Shown here: piece by piece, positions 1,098 to 5,839 of the stretch | Position numbering within the stretch: position 1 is the stretch's first letter | How the letters are laid out: each line of letters starts with the position of its first letter | Assembly (NCBI GenBank): GCA_946481475.1 | Contig: CAMLOB010000279.1 | Coordinates: 1 to 5,904, forward strand | Length of the DNA: 5,904 nt | Direction of reading: 5' to 3' | Source: an uncultured Chlorobiota bacterium | GTDB taxonomy: Bacteria > Bacteroidota > Kapaibacteriia > OLB7 | Program-made: the position numbers and the translations under genes | The notes under the pieces: generated by a model | Seen by the model: the letters and a program-made list of their open reading frames with translations, nothing else | What the model was told of the DNA's origin: nothing | Database searches by the model: none

Positions 1098-1835
1098 TCA
1101 GACTTGACCCGCCATATAGTGATAGTCGTTGAGGATTGTTTTCAGGAACAACTCGGTGGTTCCTACTTTCGATCGTTCGATCTCAAGAACATCGGCGATC
1201 TTGTAGGCGATCTTCGAGAGGATCTCCGGCTCGGCCCCCTTGCCGACCGCTTCAAATCCCTGACGGATCACCGCCATATCACTGTCGTTCAGCCGGACAG
1301 CCTGCGGCCAGACCGGTGTGTAGTCGGCTCCGAGAGGAAGGAAGAGCGTTTCCTCCACTTCGTCCCCGGTTGTCATCCTGACCACAGTAGTTCCGGCAGC
1401 AAGGTCGCCGACACGCTGTCCGTAGCGGGTGGCGACAATCGAGATGACGGCGATACTTCCCAGACCGACAACCGCTGTAATCGGATTTGCCTCGACGATC
1501 CAGAAGAGCCAGCGCAACAGATAGGATCCGACCGTCGGCTGTGATCCGTCTGTCCGGACCACCTTCAGCTTCATTGCCCGCTTGCCGACGGTTTGTCCGT
1601 CCATGAATACCTCACAGACCAGAGGATAGAAAAGCAGAGGAAGAGGGGGCAGCAGGAAGACGTAGATCATCCATTCGGGCAAGTCGAAATCTGCGGTGAT
1701 TGCCAGCAGAAACCAGAAGGCGTAGTAACCGGCGAAGATTGCCAGGTCGATCAGGGCGGCGATAAACCGATAGCCGATACCGGCTACCTCGTATTCGAGG
1801 TCTACGTTCTGCGTGGTATGGATGCGAATCTTCAT
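1098..1835 (-). CDS. RDD family inner-membrane protein
   Basis: A 245-residue membrane protein with an N-terminal RDD domain (about 1-153) and a soluble C-terminal tail of about 90 residues. The domain opens with IRIHTTQNVDLEYEVAGIGYRFIAALID, in which Arg23 and Asp30 are the family's charged residues at the first helix. Membrane segments lie near 24-48, 54-76 and 116-136. The family loop GQTVGKRAMKLKVVRTDG spans 80-97, and GQRVGDLAAGTTVVR (139-153) closes the domain. RDD proteins have been proposed as transporters or membrane accessory factors; the activity of this one is unknown. The ATG at 1835 places the family N-terminus correctly, although no strong Shine-Dalgarno is visible, as is common in Bacteroidota-like genomes. 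It is transcribed divergently from the SpoIIM-family gene. RDD and SpoIIM genes often sit together in this lineage, which suggests a shared membrane role (inference). Confidence 0.93.
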   Translation of the reverse strand: MKIRIHTTQNVDLEYEVAGIGYRFIAALIDLAIFAGYYAFWFLLAITADFDLPEWMIYVFLLPPLPLLFYPLVCEVFMDGQTVGKRAMKLKVVRTDGSQPTVGSYLLRWLFWIVEANPITAVVGLGSIAVISIVATRYGQRVGDLAAGTTVVRMTTGDEVEETLFLPLGADYTPVWPQAVRLNDSDMAVIRQGFEAVGKGAEPEILSKIAYKIADVLEIERSKVGTTELFLKTILNDYHYMAGQV

Positions 1836-2089
1836 GGACTGATAGTTGTTGTGTGAAGCCGGGGTTACGGCATGGACCTGTATGTATGATGTATTTGTGG
1901 TAATGGGTGGTGAGCTTTGAGAAATGAGCTATGAGCAGTCAGCTATCAGCAATTGGTCAACCATGAGCAATGGACCGGACATCTGCAGTCTCACACTCTA
2001 CGAACTCTTCTCTCTCCAAACTTTTCTATCTTGCGGGGCAAATTTCGCTTCTCTACGATGAACTTCCAAACAATAGAGATCACTTCCGG
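1836..2089. promoter_or_regulatory. Divergent intergenic region between the RDD and SpoIIM genes
   Basis: This gap must hold the promoters for both outward-facing membrane-protein genes unless transcripts enter from further away. I cannot point to a convincing -10/-35 or a Bacteroidota TAnnTTTG box. The middle contains a degenerate short repeat (about 1911-1974, listed separately). The reading frame of the SpoIIM gene stays open back to an ATG at 1970, but the 40 extra residues it would add are serine-rich and not part of the family, so this stretch is treated as non-coding. Confidence 0.5.
1911..1974. repeat. Degenerate TGAGC/ATGAGC short tandem repeat
   Basis: Variants of a 6-8 bp unit recur: TGAGCT at 1911 and 1925, ATGAGC at 1931, AGCTATCAGC just after, and ATGAGCAATGG near 1963. 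The copies are imperfect and unevenly spaced. It looks like a decayed microsatellite in the divergent promoter region of the RDD and SpoIIM genes. It differs in unit from the perfect heptamer array downstream of the SpoIIM gene. Confidence 0.55.
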
Positions 2090-3055
2090 ATGAAAGAGGC
2101 TCTGTTCGTCAAACGAAATGCGGATCGGTGGAAGGAGTTCGAGTCGATGCTTGAACGGCAAAGCCGGGAGCATGACCCGGACAAGCTGGCTGCGCTCTTC
2201 GTGCAGTTGACCGATGATCTGTCCTACGCCCGCACATTCTATCCGCGGACGAAGACCGCCACGTATCTGAACGGCCTGGCCACAAAAGCTCACCAGGCGA
2301 TTTACAGGAGAAAACGTGAACGGGGGGATCGCTTCAGAGAGTTCTGGCTGCGGGAAGTTCCGATGGAGATGTACGGTGCGAGGAAGGAGTTCCTCCTCTC
2401 CTTTGTTGTGTTTGCCGTTGCCGTCCTGATTGCCGTGGTCTCCACCGCCAACGATCCCTCGTTCCCCGGCTCGATCCTCGGCGACAGATATGTGGACATG
2501 ACGATGGACAACATCGCTCAGGGAGATCCGATGGGGGTCTACAAGTCGGACTCGCAGATCAATATGTTCCTGCGCATTACCGCCAACAACATTCTGGTCT
2601 CTTTCTATGCCTTTATTCTCGGCGCGCTCTTTTCATTCGGTACAGTCTGGCTGTTGATCAAAAACGGAATGATGCTCGGGGTCTTCCACACGTTTCTGCA
2701 TGATCAGGGCTATCTCTTCACGTCGCTTCTGACGGTCTACATTCACGGCACCATCGAGATATCGGCGATTATCGTCGCCGGAGCGGCCGGTCTTGTCATG
2801 GGGAACAGCCTTCTCTTTCCGGGGACCTACTCCAGGAAAGTTGCCTTTACCAGAGGGGCGCTTCGGGGATTGAAGATCGTCATCGGCCTCATCCCCTTCT
2901 TCATCGTTGCCGGATTCCTGGAATCCTTCGTCACCCGCTACACCGACATGCCGGTCGTCGCCAACCTCGGCATCATCGGTCTTTCCCTGGCCCTTATCGT
3001 CGGCTACTTCATTCTCTGGCCCTCGGTAACGGCCCGGCGGATGAGGGAGATGTAA
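2090..3055 (+). CDS. Stage II sporulation protein M (SpoIIM/DUF95) family membrane protein
   Basis: A 321-residue polytopic inner-membrane protein. The N-terminal cytoplasmic part (1-100) has the family sequence MKEALFVKRNADRW and TDDLSYARTFYP (41-52). Membrane segments lie near 101-120, 168-190, 222-243, 261-280 and 290-310. Family marks include PMGVYKSDSQINMFLRIT (147-164), NNILVSFYAFILG, IHGTIEIS (218-225), LLFPGTYSR (241-249) and ESFVTRYTDMP (278-288). In endospore formers SpoIIM belongs to the DMP peptidoglycan hydrolase complex, but many non-sporulating bacteria carry this paralogous family beside RDD, MoxR-type ATPase or DUF58 genes, where its role is unknown. The frame is open upstream to an ATG at 1970, which would give 361 residues. 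I prefer the ATG at 2090 because homology begins exactly there; an AGAG at 2075-2078 is only a weak ribosome binding site. There is no reason to infer sporulation. Confidence 0.93.
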   Translation: MKEALFVKRNADRWKEFESMLERQSREHDPDKLAALFVQLTDDLSYARTFYPRTKTATYLNGLATKAHQAIYRRKRERGDRFREFWLREVPMEMYGARKEFLLSFVVFAVAVLIAVVSTANDPSFPGSILGDRYVDMTMDNIAQGDPMGVYKSDSQINMFLRITANNILVSFYAFILGALFSFGTVWLLIKNGMMLGVFHTFLHDQGYLFTSLLTVYIHGTIEISAIIVAGAAGLVMGNSLLFPGTYSRKVAFTRGALRGLKIVIGLIPFFIVAGFLESFVTRYTDMPVVANLGIIGLSLALIVGYFILWPSVTARRMREM

Positions 3056-3159: not shown

Positions 3160-3196
3160 AATAAAAGCCCGGCAACGAACCACCAATGCCGGGCTT
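3160..3196 (-). terminator. Second rho-independent terminator-like hairpin (minus strand)
   Basis: A perfect 10-bp inverted repeat, AAGCCCGGCA (3165-3174) with TGCCGGGCTT (3187-3196), has a 12-base loop. Read on the minus strand, the GC-rich stem runs straight into CTTTTATT, as in an intrinsic terminator. The plus strand has no T-tract after the stem. It lies about 130 bp beyond the first terminator and serves no nearer minus-strand gene, so it is either a backup or a duplicated relic. Confidence 0.7.
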
Positions 3197-3203
3197 CATA
3201 TAT

Positions 3204-3271
3204 TCGCCAATCGCCAATCGCCAATCGCCAATCGCCAATCGCCAATCGCCAATCGCCAATCGCCAATCGCC
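3204..3271. repeat. Heptanucleotide tandem repeat TCGCCAA, about 9.7 copies
   Basis: Nine perfect head-to-tail copies of TCGCCAA (3204-3266) are followed by a partial TCGCC (3267-3271). The neighbouring modules have only one or two matching units at the same place (ATTCGCCGATTG near 3108 and ATTCGCCAATTG near 3356). The array therefore looks like an expansion of a short motif already present in the module. Perfect copies suggest recent slippage. Three units make 21 bases, which produces a spurious repetitive frame (GDWRLAI) on the minus strand; I do not regard it as a gene. Confidence 0.95.
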
Positions 3272-3316: not shown

Positions 3317-3354
3317 AATAAAAAGCCCGGCGTCGGATTCCCAACGCCGGGCTT
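3317..3354 (-). terminator. Rho-independent terminator of the sigma/T9SS-domain operon
   Basis: A perfect 11-bp inverted repeat, AAGCCCGGCGT (3323-3333) with ACGCCGGGCTT (3344-3354), encloses a 10-base loop. On the minus strand the stem is followed at once by a T-rich tract (complement of AATAAAAA, 3317-3324). It begins 33 bp after the stop codon of the minus-strand gene at 3388, the expected place for the operon terminator. The plus strand lacks a T-tract, so it would not be a classic terminator for the SpoIIM gene. Confidence 0.88.
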
Positions 3355-3387
3355 CATTCGCCAATTGTCAATCGCGCTTCGTCAATC

Positions 3388-5205
3388 CTACCTGACCACC
3401 TGCATCTTCTTCGAGAAGACCTGCTCTCCGTCCGAAGTCTGGATCGTCAGATGGTAGAGATAGGTTCCGGTCTGCAGGTCGGCCACATCAAGCTGTGCCG
3501 AGTGGTCTCCTGCGCCGACCGATCCGAGGTCGATCCGGCGGACTTCGCTTCCGGTTGCGTCAAAGAGGCGGAGCGTTGTCGCCGGGCTTGCCTCCTGCAG
3601 CGTGAAGTCGATCGTCGCCTTGCTCCCTGCCGGGTTCGGGTAGCTCTGCTTCAGCGTGGAGTTCGCCTCCAGCGTGATGCCGGCCACCGGTTCGGCGATC
3701 GTGCTGGAGAGGACATCGCTGATATCAGAGCCGTTGTAGAGCATGATCATCGGTTCGAAGATCACCTCGTAGAGAGGCTCCACCGACTTCATGAACTCCC
3801 CGGATTCGAACATCCGGTCGGCGTTCTCGGCTTTGTCGGCCAGTAGGTGGCGCATCTCCTCCGGGACTTCGTCGCCGTGCTGCTCAACGATGTCGACAAG
3901 TCTTTCCCGAACCATCGAGACGAAGTTGTCGATGTCCTTCTTCAACGTGACTTTCAGTTCATCCATTGCCTCCCGGTTCCGTTCGGCGATTCCCCACGTG
4001 CCGACGAGAATCCGGGACGACTCGCTCCCCTCGGCTTCGATCATCGACTTGATCATACCGACCATCGGCTGCAGATGAATCTCTCCGTCATTGACTTCGA
4101 TCTTCATGCTCTTCGCTTCCGCATTCTCGATCACGATCTTCTCTTCCTCCACTTCCTCGGAGTCATTGTTCAATCTCTTGATCCTGATCTCCTTGCGGAC
4201 GGTCTGCTTGCTGCCGTCGGATACTTCCGGTCCTTCCGGATCGACCTCTGCACTCTGCGCTCCCTCCATAATGATGACCCGGTTCTTGACTTTGGTCTCT
4301 TGTCCTTCGTCCCCCTCAATGCTGACTTCGCTGTCGGCATTGAACCGCATGATGAGATTACCGTTCCCGTCGGAGGTTGCGATTTCCATTGCGTTGTTGC
4401 CGTCCGAGTCGGCATGGAGTGAGACGTCGGCTGATCCGTGCTTCTTCCTTTTCATCGCCAGCCCGGCATTCAGAGCGGCATCGGTTCCGTCGTTTGTCCG
4501 GGCGTGCATCCCCATGCCGAGACCGAAGTTCAGGCTCGATTCGTCATCTTTATCCAGCACATTCCAGCGGACGCGGAAGCGGTCCAGCTCCGTCCGGTCG
4601 CTCGCGGAGATCGAGCGGTCGATAAAACGCTTGTACTCGTTGATCTTGTCCACCCAGTAGTTCTCGATGAGCTTGTGAAGCTCCTCGGAAATCTTCCGGC
4701 CGGTCTCGTCGTCGGAGTCGTCGGTATCGATAACGATTCCGTTCTTTTCCTTGTCCCGTCCGGCGATCTGCTCTTCGGTCGCAGGCCGGAAGGTTCCGCT
4801 CAACGTCGTTCCCTCCGCAGGTGTCGTCGCCGGTCCCGCTGCAAGGGGAGCCGCTTCCGGTGCGGTCGACCTGATCGTCGGGGATTCCGGCAGGATGGTC
4901 ATTACCGGTCCCTGCTGAAGGTTCACTTCACTCTTCGGACTCGTAAAGAACGTCCCGACGCCGATGAGTCCACCTATCATCAATACTGCTATGCTTCCCA
5001 TAATGGTAGTTCGTGTTGTTCTTGAAAGTTGGTTCTGTCCGGTCTTCCCGGGCTTCTCGTCGGTGATGCGCTGCCGGCCGTGCAGGTCCGCCCGATCGAG
5101 AAGTGTGTTGATCTCGTCCTCCGATACCACCGGAGTCTCACGTCGCGCCTCGGCGAACATGTCGTTGAGATATGGTTTCTGCGTGCCCATGGGTCTATGC
5201 TGCAT
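3388..5205 (-). CDS. Putative anti-sigma-like single-pass membrane protein with C-terminal T9SS sorting domain
   Basis: A 605-residue protein directly downstream of an ECF sigma gene. Residues 1-66 are hydrophilic and probably cytoplasmic (YLNDMFAEARRETP, then SEDEINTLLDRAD). One transmembrane helix spans about 67-88. A Pro/Ala/Thr linker (about 98-140) follows. A helical segment near 172-218 (KINEYKRFIDRSISASDR) vaguely recalls CpxP/Spy-like periplasmic helices. Next come a charged Asp/Glu/Lys-rich region (220-375) and a second helical part (408-490). The end (about 514-605) matches the T9SS type A sorting domain: YPNP (522-525), LRLFDATGSEVRRIDL, LQTGTYLYHL and KKMQVVR. No cysteine is visible, so it is not a zinc-binding anti-sigma factor. 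Gene order and topology suggest an anti-sigma factor (inference); the alternative is a T9SS cargo protein with a long signal anchor. The ATG at 5205 overlaps the sigma gene by 11 bp; the ATG at 5190, four bases after the sigma stop codon, is equally possible. No clear Shine-Dalgarno separates them. Confidence 0.8.
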   Translation of the reverse strand: MQHRPMGTQKPYLNDMFAEARRETPVVSEDEINTLLDRADLHGRQRITDEKPGKTGQNQLSRTTRTTIMGSIAVLMIGGLIGVGTFFTSPKSEVNLQQGPVMTILPESPTIRSTAPEAAPLAAGPATTPAEGTTLSGTFRPATEEQIAGRDKEKNGIVIDTDDSDDETGRKISEELHKLIENYWVDKINEYKRFIDRSISASDRTELDRFRVRWNVLDKDDESSLNFGLGMGMHARTNDGTDAALNAGLAMKRKKHGSADVSLHADSDGNNAMEIATSDGNGNLIMRFNADSEVSIEGDEGQETKVKNRVIIMEGAQSAEVDPEGPEVSDGSKQTVRKEIRIKRLNNDSEEVEEEKIVIENAEAKSMKIEVNDGEIHLQPMVGMIKSMIEAEGSESSRILVGTWGIAERNREAMDELKVTLKKDIDNFVSMVRERLVDIVEQHGDEVPEEMRHLLADKAENADRMFESGEFMKSVEPLYEVIFEPMIMLYNGSDISDVLSSTIAEPVAGITLEANSTLKQSYPNPAGSKATIDFTLQEASPATTLRLFDATGSEVRRIDLGSVGAGDHSAQLDVADLQTGTYLYHLTIQTSDGEQVFSKKMQVVR

Positions 5206-5782
5206 TCATGTATAAAAGATTCTTCGGTGGTTCCTGGGAGGCCTGTTCGTCGGAGGTCGGTTCTTCTCCTTCATCGATTGCTCCCAGAAGCTGTGCCAGT
5301 CTTCTCCGTCCGCGCGTTACACGTGACTTTGCGCCGGAGAGGGTCGTCCCCTGAATTGTGCAGATCTCCTTCAGCGGAATGTCGGCGATCTCGAAAAGGA
5401 TTACCGCCTCGCGTTGTTCCGGGGGGAGCTTTTCAAGGGCGGCATGGAGGAGAGCAACGTCGGCGGACACCTCTGGTGACGTTCCCGCGTCGGGCATCCG
5501 CCGGACCTGCTCTTCGTGATATTCTCCGTGATATTTCTCGCGGATACCCCGTTTCCTGTAGAGACGACCGGCGATGGTAAAGAGCCAGGAGAGGAAGGCC
5601 CGTTCATCCCGCAGATCGTCGAACCCTTCGTAGGCGGCCAGCGTTGTCTCGGCAACCAGGTCCCGGGCCTCTTCCCGGTCGTTGGTCATGGCTGCGGCAA
5701 ATCGTGCCAGCCTCGGACGAAGCGGTTCATACAATCGCATGAACCGTTCAGTTCGTTCCTTTCTGTTCGTCCCGTTCGGCAT
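5195..5782 (-). CDS. ECF-type RNA polymerase sigma factor (sigma-70 family)
   Basis: A 195-residue alternative sigma factor containing only regions 2 and 4, typical of the extracytoplasmic function group. Region 2 lies at about 14-80: the helix with AMTNDREEARDLVAETTLAAYEGF (DLVAET at 41-46) and AFLSWLFTIAGRLYRKRG. Region 4 lies at about 110-168: LEKLPPEQREAVILFEIADIPLKEI, then the helix-turn-helix with GTTLSGAKSRVTRGRRRLAQLL. The last 27 residues are a hydrophilic tail outside the fold. It is the first gene of a minus-strand operon; the next gene overlaps it by 11 bp or starts four bases after its TAG (5195-5197). The linked membrane protein suggests control by release from an inner-membrane anti-sigma factor in response to an envelope signal (inference). 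The ATG at 5782 has GAGG only two bases upstream, closer than usual. The next in-frame ATG, at residue 15, would cut into region 2. A candidate ECF promoter lies just upstream. Confidence 0.95.
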   Translation of the reverse strand: MPNGTNRKERTERFMRLYEPLRPRLARFAAAMTNDREEARDLVAETTLAAYEGFDDLRDERAFLSWLFTIAGRLYRKRGIREKYHGEYHEEQVRRMPDAGTSPEVSADVALLHAALEKLPPEQREAVILFEIADIPLKEICTIQGTTLSGAKSRVTRGRRRLAQLLGAIDEGEEPTSDEQASQEPPKNLLYMNAA

Positions 5783-5810: not shown

Positions 5811-5839
5811 TGTATAGCTGCTTTCGATGGGTAGGTTCC
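5811..5839 (-). promoter_or_regulatory. Candidate ECF-type promoter of the sigma operon
   Basis: On the minus strand, GGAACC (5839-5834) is followed after 17 bases by TATACA (5816-5811), about 28 bases before the sigma ATG. A GGAAC -35 element is typical of many ECF sigma factors, which often activate their own operon. The -10 part looks more like a housekeeping box than the usual ECF one. This is a motif match by eye only. Confidence 0.3.

Follow-up and report, generated by a model that had tools for sequence, protein, structure and literature searches.

The window, a stretch of 5,904 nucleotides from an uncultured Chlorobiota bacterium, was found to carry two adjoining genes on the reverse strand, one for an ECF sigma factor and one for a membrane protein resembling an anti-sigma factor, and both open reading frames of this pair, which had been claimed in an earlier sequence-only reading, are present (Table 1). 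The first product is identified as an ECF sigma factor by its sigma2 and sigma4 regions, both of which scored above the curated Pfam cut-offs (Sigma70_r2, E = 1.5e-11, 44.3 bits, cut-off 24; Sigma70_r4_2, E = 2.5e-12, 46.7 bits, cut-off 25.7), and by a match to the NCBIfam model TIGR02937 (66.6 bits, cut-off 42.9). The top NCBIfam match, SigE_fam_strep, fell short of the cut-off set for that model (83.7 vs 141.55), and for that reason no named sigma subfamily is claimed. For the membrane protein, ATG 5190 (MGTQKPYL, 600 aa) was considered a likelier start than 5205, which opens the longest reading frame (3388-5205, 605 aa), because four of the five family members bearing an N-terminus, the window's own record included, start there; the fifth, P0002, has its predicted start upstream, at MQHR. 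A purine-rich ribosome site was absent by eye before both ATG 5190 and the downstream Met64, so that ribosome sites favour neither start. With ATG 5190 the two genes lie 4 nt apart and thus abut, as had been reported, whereas the overlap reported as the other option arises only with the start at 5205, and then measures 11 nt. The hairpin downstream of the membrane gene has a folding energy of -30.2 kcal/mol (z = -5.98), and none of 200 shuffles was as stable; a pattern scan for terminators returned two sites against 3.0 expected, the hairpin not being among the two. The candidate promoter upstream of the sigma gene was matched with a pattern picked after this first site had been seen, and a second match inside the 3' end of the sigma gene (0.22 expected; two or more in 6 of 200 shuffles) adds a weak indication. 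The pattern scan of the window for sigma-70 promoters found none, with 1.0 expected, and no Rfam match was obtained.

Table 1. Features of the gene pair and its surroundings, with positions in the window; residue numbers are those of the 600-residue membrane protein, except for the sigma regions.
Feature	Positions	Strand	Basis or remark
ECF sigma factor gene, 195 aa	5195..5782	-	sigma2 at residues ~17-75, sigma4 at residues ~111-162
Membrane anti-sigma-like protein gene, 600 aa	3388..5190	-	likely start ATG 5190
Putative cytoplasmic sigma-binding domain, residues 1-40	5071..5190	-	conservation and likeness to Aureispira P0128
Single membrane helix, residues 63-81	4948..5004	-	hydropathy
Conserved helical segment, NYWVDKINEYK..LDRFRVRW, residues 162-214	4549..4707	-	conservation and structure model
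Helical domain, residues 374-484	3739..4071	-	conservation and structure models
Most conserved stretch, YNGSDI..STIAEPVAG..LEANSTLKQS, residues 486-516	3643..3735	-	conservation; no confident structure predicted
Ig-like T9SS type A sorting domain, residues 517-600	3391..3642	-	Pfam/NCBIfam models and structure model
Clade-conserved end of the sigma factor, LLYMNAA (codons), possible degron	5198..5218	-	ends of relatives
Weak candidate for an autoregulated ECF promoter upstream of the sigma gene, GGAACC-17 nt-TATACA	5811..5839	-	pattern match
Possible intrinsic terminator downstream of the membrane gene, hairpin of 15 pairs with T-rich end (GGGCTTTTTATT)	3322..3355	-	folding energy

At least seven homologues of the membrane protein, the window's own included, were found in a protein search that scored the approximately 8,000 candidates with most words in common. 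A further protein, P0129, was added by a profile search and then dropped from the family and the counts (12% of the query matched, E = 8.7e-4). Mean pairwise identities over the seven-member family, with the near-duplicate pair P0006-P0007 left out, were found to rise and fall along the protein: 67% at residues 1-40 (10 pairs, 18 of 40 columns invariant), 14% at residues 41-61, 47% in the helix, 19% in the tether 85-166, 56% in the helical segment (here 167-212), 21% at residues 213-378, 46% in the helical domain (here 379-486), 82% at residues 486-516 (22 of 31 columns invariant) and, close to the value of the N-terminus, 66% in the sorting domain 517-600. Conserved ends with drifting tethers between them would be expected were both ends to bind partners. 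The structure model had a mean pLDDT of 44.9, with low confidence over residues 1-161 and 213-373 and values below 50 at residues 487-521; as low pLDDT also covers the conserved N-terminus and the helix, it does not by itself prove that the tethers are disordered.

Residues 1-40 are probably the sigma-binding part, because the N-terminus resembles that of P0128, the product of a gene that shares 4 nt with the ECF sigma gene next to it on a plasmid of Aureispira. P0128 was located via its sigma neighbour, not via the N-terminal motif, and its residues 1-33 align without gaps to residues 1-33 of the window's protein with a score of 48, a value reached by none of 5000 shuffles (best shuffle, 43); the best score among 118 other 50-residue pieces of P0128 was 28. 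When compared with P0128, the family members P0002, P0003 and P0004 gave scores that were reached by 1, 0 and 0 of 5000 shuffles, respectively, and P0005, which does not stand out, a score that was reached by 311 of 5000. P0128 is otherwise unlike the window's membrane protein and, in this single case, the ECF partner lacks a sorting domain: at E <= 10 it gave no Pfam match, and the seven PF18962 matches of the plasmid all lie elsewhere. The N-terminal likeness supports the notion of a Bacteroidota anti-sigma N-terminus. Residues 1-62 gave no Pfam match at E <= 10, and no Pfam or NCBIfam anti-sigma model was among the matches listed for them. The earlier view of the N-terminus (there residues 1-66) as a distinct element fits both the conservation of residues 1-40 and their resemblance to the start of another ECF-abutting protein.

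The single membrane helix was assigned from hydropathy (residues 63-81, mean Kyte-Doolittle value of 2.05; next-best segment, 0.91), and the topology was derived from hydropathy together with positive residues. In the 605-residue numbering of the earlier reading, which had placed one helix at 67-88, the strong segment corresponds to 68-86. In the window's protein 62 residues precede the helix, and the five of the seven members that have the conserved preceding stretch carry an Arg or Lys immediately ahead of it. No signal-peptidase motif (AxA) common to the members was seen by eye, AGA being present in P0002 only. Residue 64, a Met within the helix, is invariant in all seven members and is the predicted start of P0006 and P0007, which hence come without the N-terminus. 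It had been recognised earlier that the helix might instead be a signal peptide that is cleaved from an otherwise simple secreted protein; by inspection this is unlikely, given the pre-helix stretch, the Arg or Lys and the unshared AxA. As judged from its sequence, the protein has the layout of a membrane anti-sigma factor, that is, an ECF-adjacent gene, a short, putatively cytoplasmic N-terminus and one helix. Membrane anti-sigma factors of the RseA/RsiW type consist of a cytoplasmic sigma-binding end, one helix and an exported sensor end. The window's protein follows the same three-part order, with sigma binding predicted, and differs from them in having no anti-sigma model among the matches listed and a sorting domain as its outer end. 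It is very likely that the two genes form a pair of ECF sigma factor and cognate membrane anti-sigma factor, for which sigma binding is predicted.

At the opposite end, the Por/T9SS-type domain that had been claimed was recovered with two models above their curated cut-offs in the window's protein, PF18962 (E = 4e-9, 37 vs cut-off 27 bits) and TIGR04183 (30.3 bits, cut-off 23), and the motifs YPNP, TGTYLY and KKMQVVR stand where they had been placed in the 605-residue numbering. The overlapping FlgD_ig model (PF13860) scored equally with PF18962 (37 vs cut-off 27 bits), and PF18962, FlgD_ig and TIGR04183 each matched all seven members, the window's own included, when judged at E-values of 0.1 and 0.01 (the comparison with cut-offs covering the first member). 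The sorting-domain matches are above chance level, and in a control PF18962 was above cut-off in none of 14 well-known genomes. Residues 521-600 were modelled as a confident Ig-like beta-sandwich (pLDDT of 70-87 per ten-residue block), and the fold comparison of this tail brought up many Ig-like folds, those of FlgD and of T9SS C-terminal domains included. Cargo of T9SS type A bears YPNP, G-x-Y and a basic end at its extreme C-terminus. Recognition of the tail by T9SS is predicted, not proven, with FlgD_ig scoring equally.

The sequence-only reading had asked whether sigma factor, helix and sorting domain stay together across genomes. The tail did so in all seven members; linkage to a sigma gene was obtained, indirectly, for two of the six members other than the window's own, from matching longest contig sizes (P0004 and sigma P0012, 2976 bases; P0006 and sigma P0014, 16226 bases). 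P0002 is a suggestive third sigma-linked member, since its start at MQHR fits a next-frame reading of a sigma gene end of the form ...NAA-stop, as in the window. Of the two linked members P0006 is the one without a predicted N-terminus, and the absence of this part from P0006 and P0007 may be an artefact or a real loss. Against the seven or more membrane homologues found, there are at least 24 close sigma relatives (P0008-P0031, at least 59% identity) among the best 120 of 144 matches, and none of the seven membrane homologues has the 1.07-Mb longest contig of sigma P0010; sigma factors of this kind may have partners elsewhere that are without this architecture, or such partners may have been missed by the search. 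The only named membrane homologue belongs to 'Candidatus Kapaibacterium sp.', a lineage placed by taxonomy within Bacteroidota, and the sigma relative P0010 to 'Ignavibacteriae bacterium'. Scans of genome contigs and viral contigs gave no relative, and the plasmid searches (24 of 24, the best 60 of 156, 1, and the best 30 of 547 records) had one Bacteroidota record among the matches listed, that of Aureispira.

The sorting domain is likely to be periplasmic and still joined to an uncleaved anchor in the inner membrane. In the proposed mechanism, residues 1-40 would tie the sigma factor to the inner membrane, where helix 63-81 would anchor the protein, and the variable tethers and helical segments, about 435 residues together, could span the periplasm. 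Some 280 residues of the ectodomain are variable tethers or belong to the low-confidence stretch 486-516, so that, by arithmetic, the chain would be long enough for its outer end to extend to the outer membrane from a helix embedded in the inner one. The Ig-like sorting domain would form this outer end and would be recognised by T9SS components in the periplasm or at the outer membrane (PorV/PorU, by analogy) or, alternatively, would be held at the outer membrane. The protein would thereby work in the manner of the Dma anti-sigma factors described below, with a T9SS sorting domain replacing the beta-barrel. The trigger would be found at the outer end, the sorting domain being unengaged, engaged and pulled, or cut off within residues 486-516, and any of the three could be the 'on' state; the change would cause the inner end to be released or proteolysed, and the sigma factor would be freed. 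It is put forward tentatively that T9SS or the outer membrane reads the outer end, and the reading as a whole, in which the anti-sigma factor spans the envelope and has an outer end that is T9SS-read or held at the outer membrane, has a real though less than even claim to be right. The observation made from the sequence is confirmed, and the interpretation then attached to it is plausible and partly supported. More doubtful, if still conceivable, is a Kapaibacterium-type class of anti-sigma factors in which the T9SS sorting domain serves as sensor, a leashed decoy substrate that needs no two-component system. If this is true, engagement or cutting of the decoy by the secretion machine would report the status of T9SS or the outer membrane directly to the ECF sigma factor.

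Other explanations were weighed against this reading. The protein could be an ordinary membrane anti-sigma factor whose Ig-like tail merely folds or binds a periplasmic ligand, with T9SS uninvolved and the likeness to FlgD_ig and Por_Secre_tail reflecting a common fold and ancestry; this would agree with the equal scores of PF13860 and PF18962 (37 bits each) with the best Foldseek matches, which are FlgD Ig domains, and with the ties among many unrelated Ig-like folds in a further fold comparison. It is nevertheless considered unlikely, in view of the TIGR04183 match (above cut-off in the window's protein and present in all seven members), the location of the tail at the very end of the protein, where it shows the YPNP, G-x-Y and basic terminus of type A cargo, and the rank of the tail among the most conserved parts of the protein. 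The ectodomain bears on a second alternative, that of shed cargo, in which a protease frees the ectodomain, the sigma factor is released by regulated proteolysis and T9SS then exports the fragment, making the switch irreversible. A single helix followed by a variable juxtamembrane tether is the usual layout of regulated-proteolysis substrates, a sorting domain cannot leave the cell on an uncut inner-membrane anchor, and residues 486-516, conserved but modelled with low confidence, could serve for processing; however, the tether 85-166 next to the helix has one invariant column of 82, so that no conserved cut site is seen near the membrane, and shedding is held to be improbable. It is highly improbable that the protein is secreted T9SS cargo that merely sits in the sigma operon, without being an anti-sigma factor, and truly starts at the helix Met, the invariant residue from which P0006 and P0007 are predicted, as residues 1-40 are conserved at the protein level in five members and are similar to the start of an otherwise different ECF-abutting protein, no positively charged n-region follows from Met64 and the post-helix signal-peptidase motif is confined, by eye, to the AGA of P0002.

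The envelope-spanning anti-sigma factor favoured here can be compared with the dual membrane-spanning anti-sigma (Dma) family of Bacteroides thetaiotaomicron, which adjoins ECF21 sigma factors (Das) and is described, in the portion of the source consulted, as having an N-terminal anti-sigma domain, a helix, a disordered tether and a C-terminal outer-membrane beta-barrel (PMC13088901). On the layout given in that description, the window's protein shares the adjoining ECF sigma factor, the N-terminal (here putative) anti-sigma domain, the one helix, the long tether, the occurrence in Bacteroidota and a C-terminal domain able to sit at the outer membrane; it differs in that the C-terminus is an Ig-like T9SS sorting domain, no barrel being modelled, and in the helical segments of its ectodomain. 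The window's protein is not a Dma member, yet by analogy it plausibly works like one. PorA of Porphyromonas gingivalis is also a T9SS sorting-domain protein and acts upstream of an ECF sigma factor, in the PorXY-SigP pathway, but as far as the consulted part of the source describes it, PorA is a surface protein that acts via a two-component system, is not an anti-sigma factor and is without an inner-membrane anchor (PMC7712824). The same part reports that the activator of PorY is undetermined and that direct contact between PorA and PorY was undetected in preliminary experiments (PMC7712824). The sequence-only reading had mentioned neither Dma nor PorA. How T9SS cells sense working secretion is an open question; an anti-sigma factor that carries a sorting domain on a tether would sense it directly. 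In the portions of the open-access literature searched, no anti-sigma factor was found described as bearing a T9SS sorting domain. If the proposal is true, the concept of envelope-spanning anti-sigma factors would no longer be limited to proteins with beta-barrels, and a one-gene reporter of T9SS engagement would become available.

The C-terminal end of the sigma factor was also found to be conserved. The pattern [IL]L[YF][MI]NAA forms the end of 23 of the 24 close sigma relatives, some of which are near-duplicates, so that they do not amount to 23 independent cases; the remaining one is a 126-aa fragment. The last seven residues are 82% identical vs 20% over the preceding twenty, as calculated for the window's protein and 22 relatives with the fragment and the 99%-identical P0008 left out. 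Among the other 96 sigma proteins listed (P0032-P0127, within the best 120 of 144 matches), four have an AA end. By analogy, the conserved -NAA end is a possible ClpXP degron, and a sigma factor freed from the membrane might then be short-lived or cleared fast. In sigma-AntA, an ECF sigma factor of Streptomyces that likewise ends in Ala-Ala, this end makes the protein a ClpXP substrate, according to the part of the source consulted; there, sigma-AntA is described as being without an anti-sigma partner, and the degron of the window's sigma factor is, by comparison, putative (PMC7142297). Alternatively, the conserved peptide may bind the anti-sigma factor. The conservation could also stem from a DNA-level constraint imposed by an overlapping downstream start or promoter, and an overlapping start could indeed explain NAA; it leaves unexplained the hydrophobic residues ahead of NAA, and the variation between YMNAA and FINAA points to a constraint at the peptide level.

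The sigma factor was found to end in a conserved LLYMNAA stretch, preceded by a variable linker; of 24 close relatives, 23 keep this stretch and the remaining one is a fragment. This end may possibly act as a ClpXP degron or as an anti-sigma contact. GGAACC...TATACA, a pattern chosen once the first site had been seen, occurred twice; the copy upstream of the sigma gene is a weak candidate for an autoregulated ECF promoter.

Features of the operon and its surroundings
Feature	Position	Strand	Remark
RDD-family membrane protein gene	1098-1835	-	PF06271, E = 3e-18
SpoIIM-family membrane protein gene	1970-3055	+	PF01944, E = 1e-35
GCCCGGC hairpin	3165-3196
TCGCCAA tandem repeat	3204-3271		perfect 7-bp unit, 9.7 copies
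GCCCGGC hairpin	3322-3355
LLYMNAA codons	5198-5218	-	sigma C-terminus
GGAACC...TATACA	5209-5234	-	sigma gene 3' end, ahead of membrane gene; spacer 14 nt
GGAACC...TATACA	5811-5839	-	upstream of sigma gene; spacer 17 nt

For P0006 and P0007, two near-identical homologues of the membrane protein that come from different sources, the predicted start is the Met in the membrane helix, reflecting either a real loss of the N-terminus or a gene-calling artefact. On the Aureispira anguillae plasmid pAUEa (L002:938-3561), an ECF sigma gene overlaps by 4 nt a gene for a 699-aa 'hypothetical protein', which presented an N-terminus of the same type as that of the window's membrane protein and is likely an anti-sigma factor lacking a sorting domain.

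The RDD-family and SpoIIM-family genes form a divergent pair adjoining the operon. The hairpins flank the tandem repeat, and degenerate TCGCCAA units extend to about 3399.
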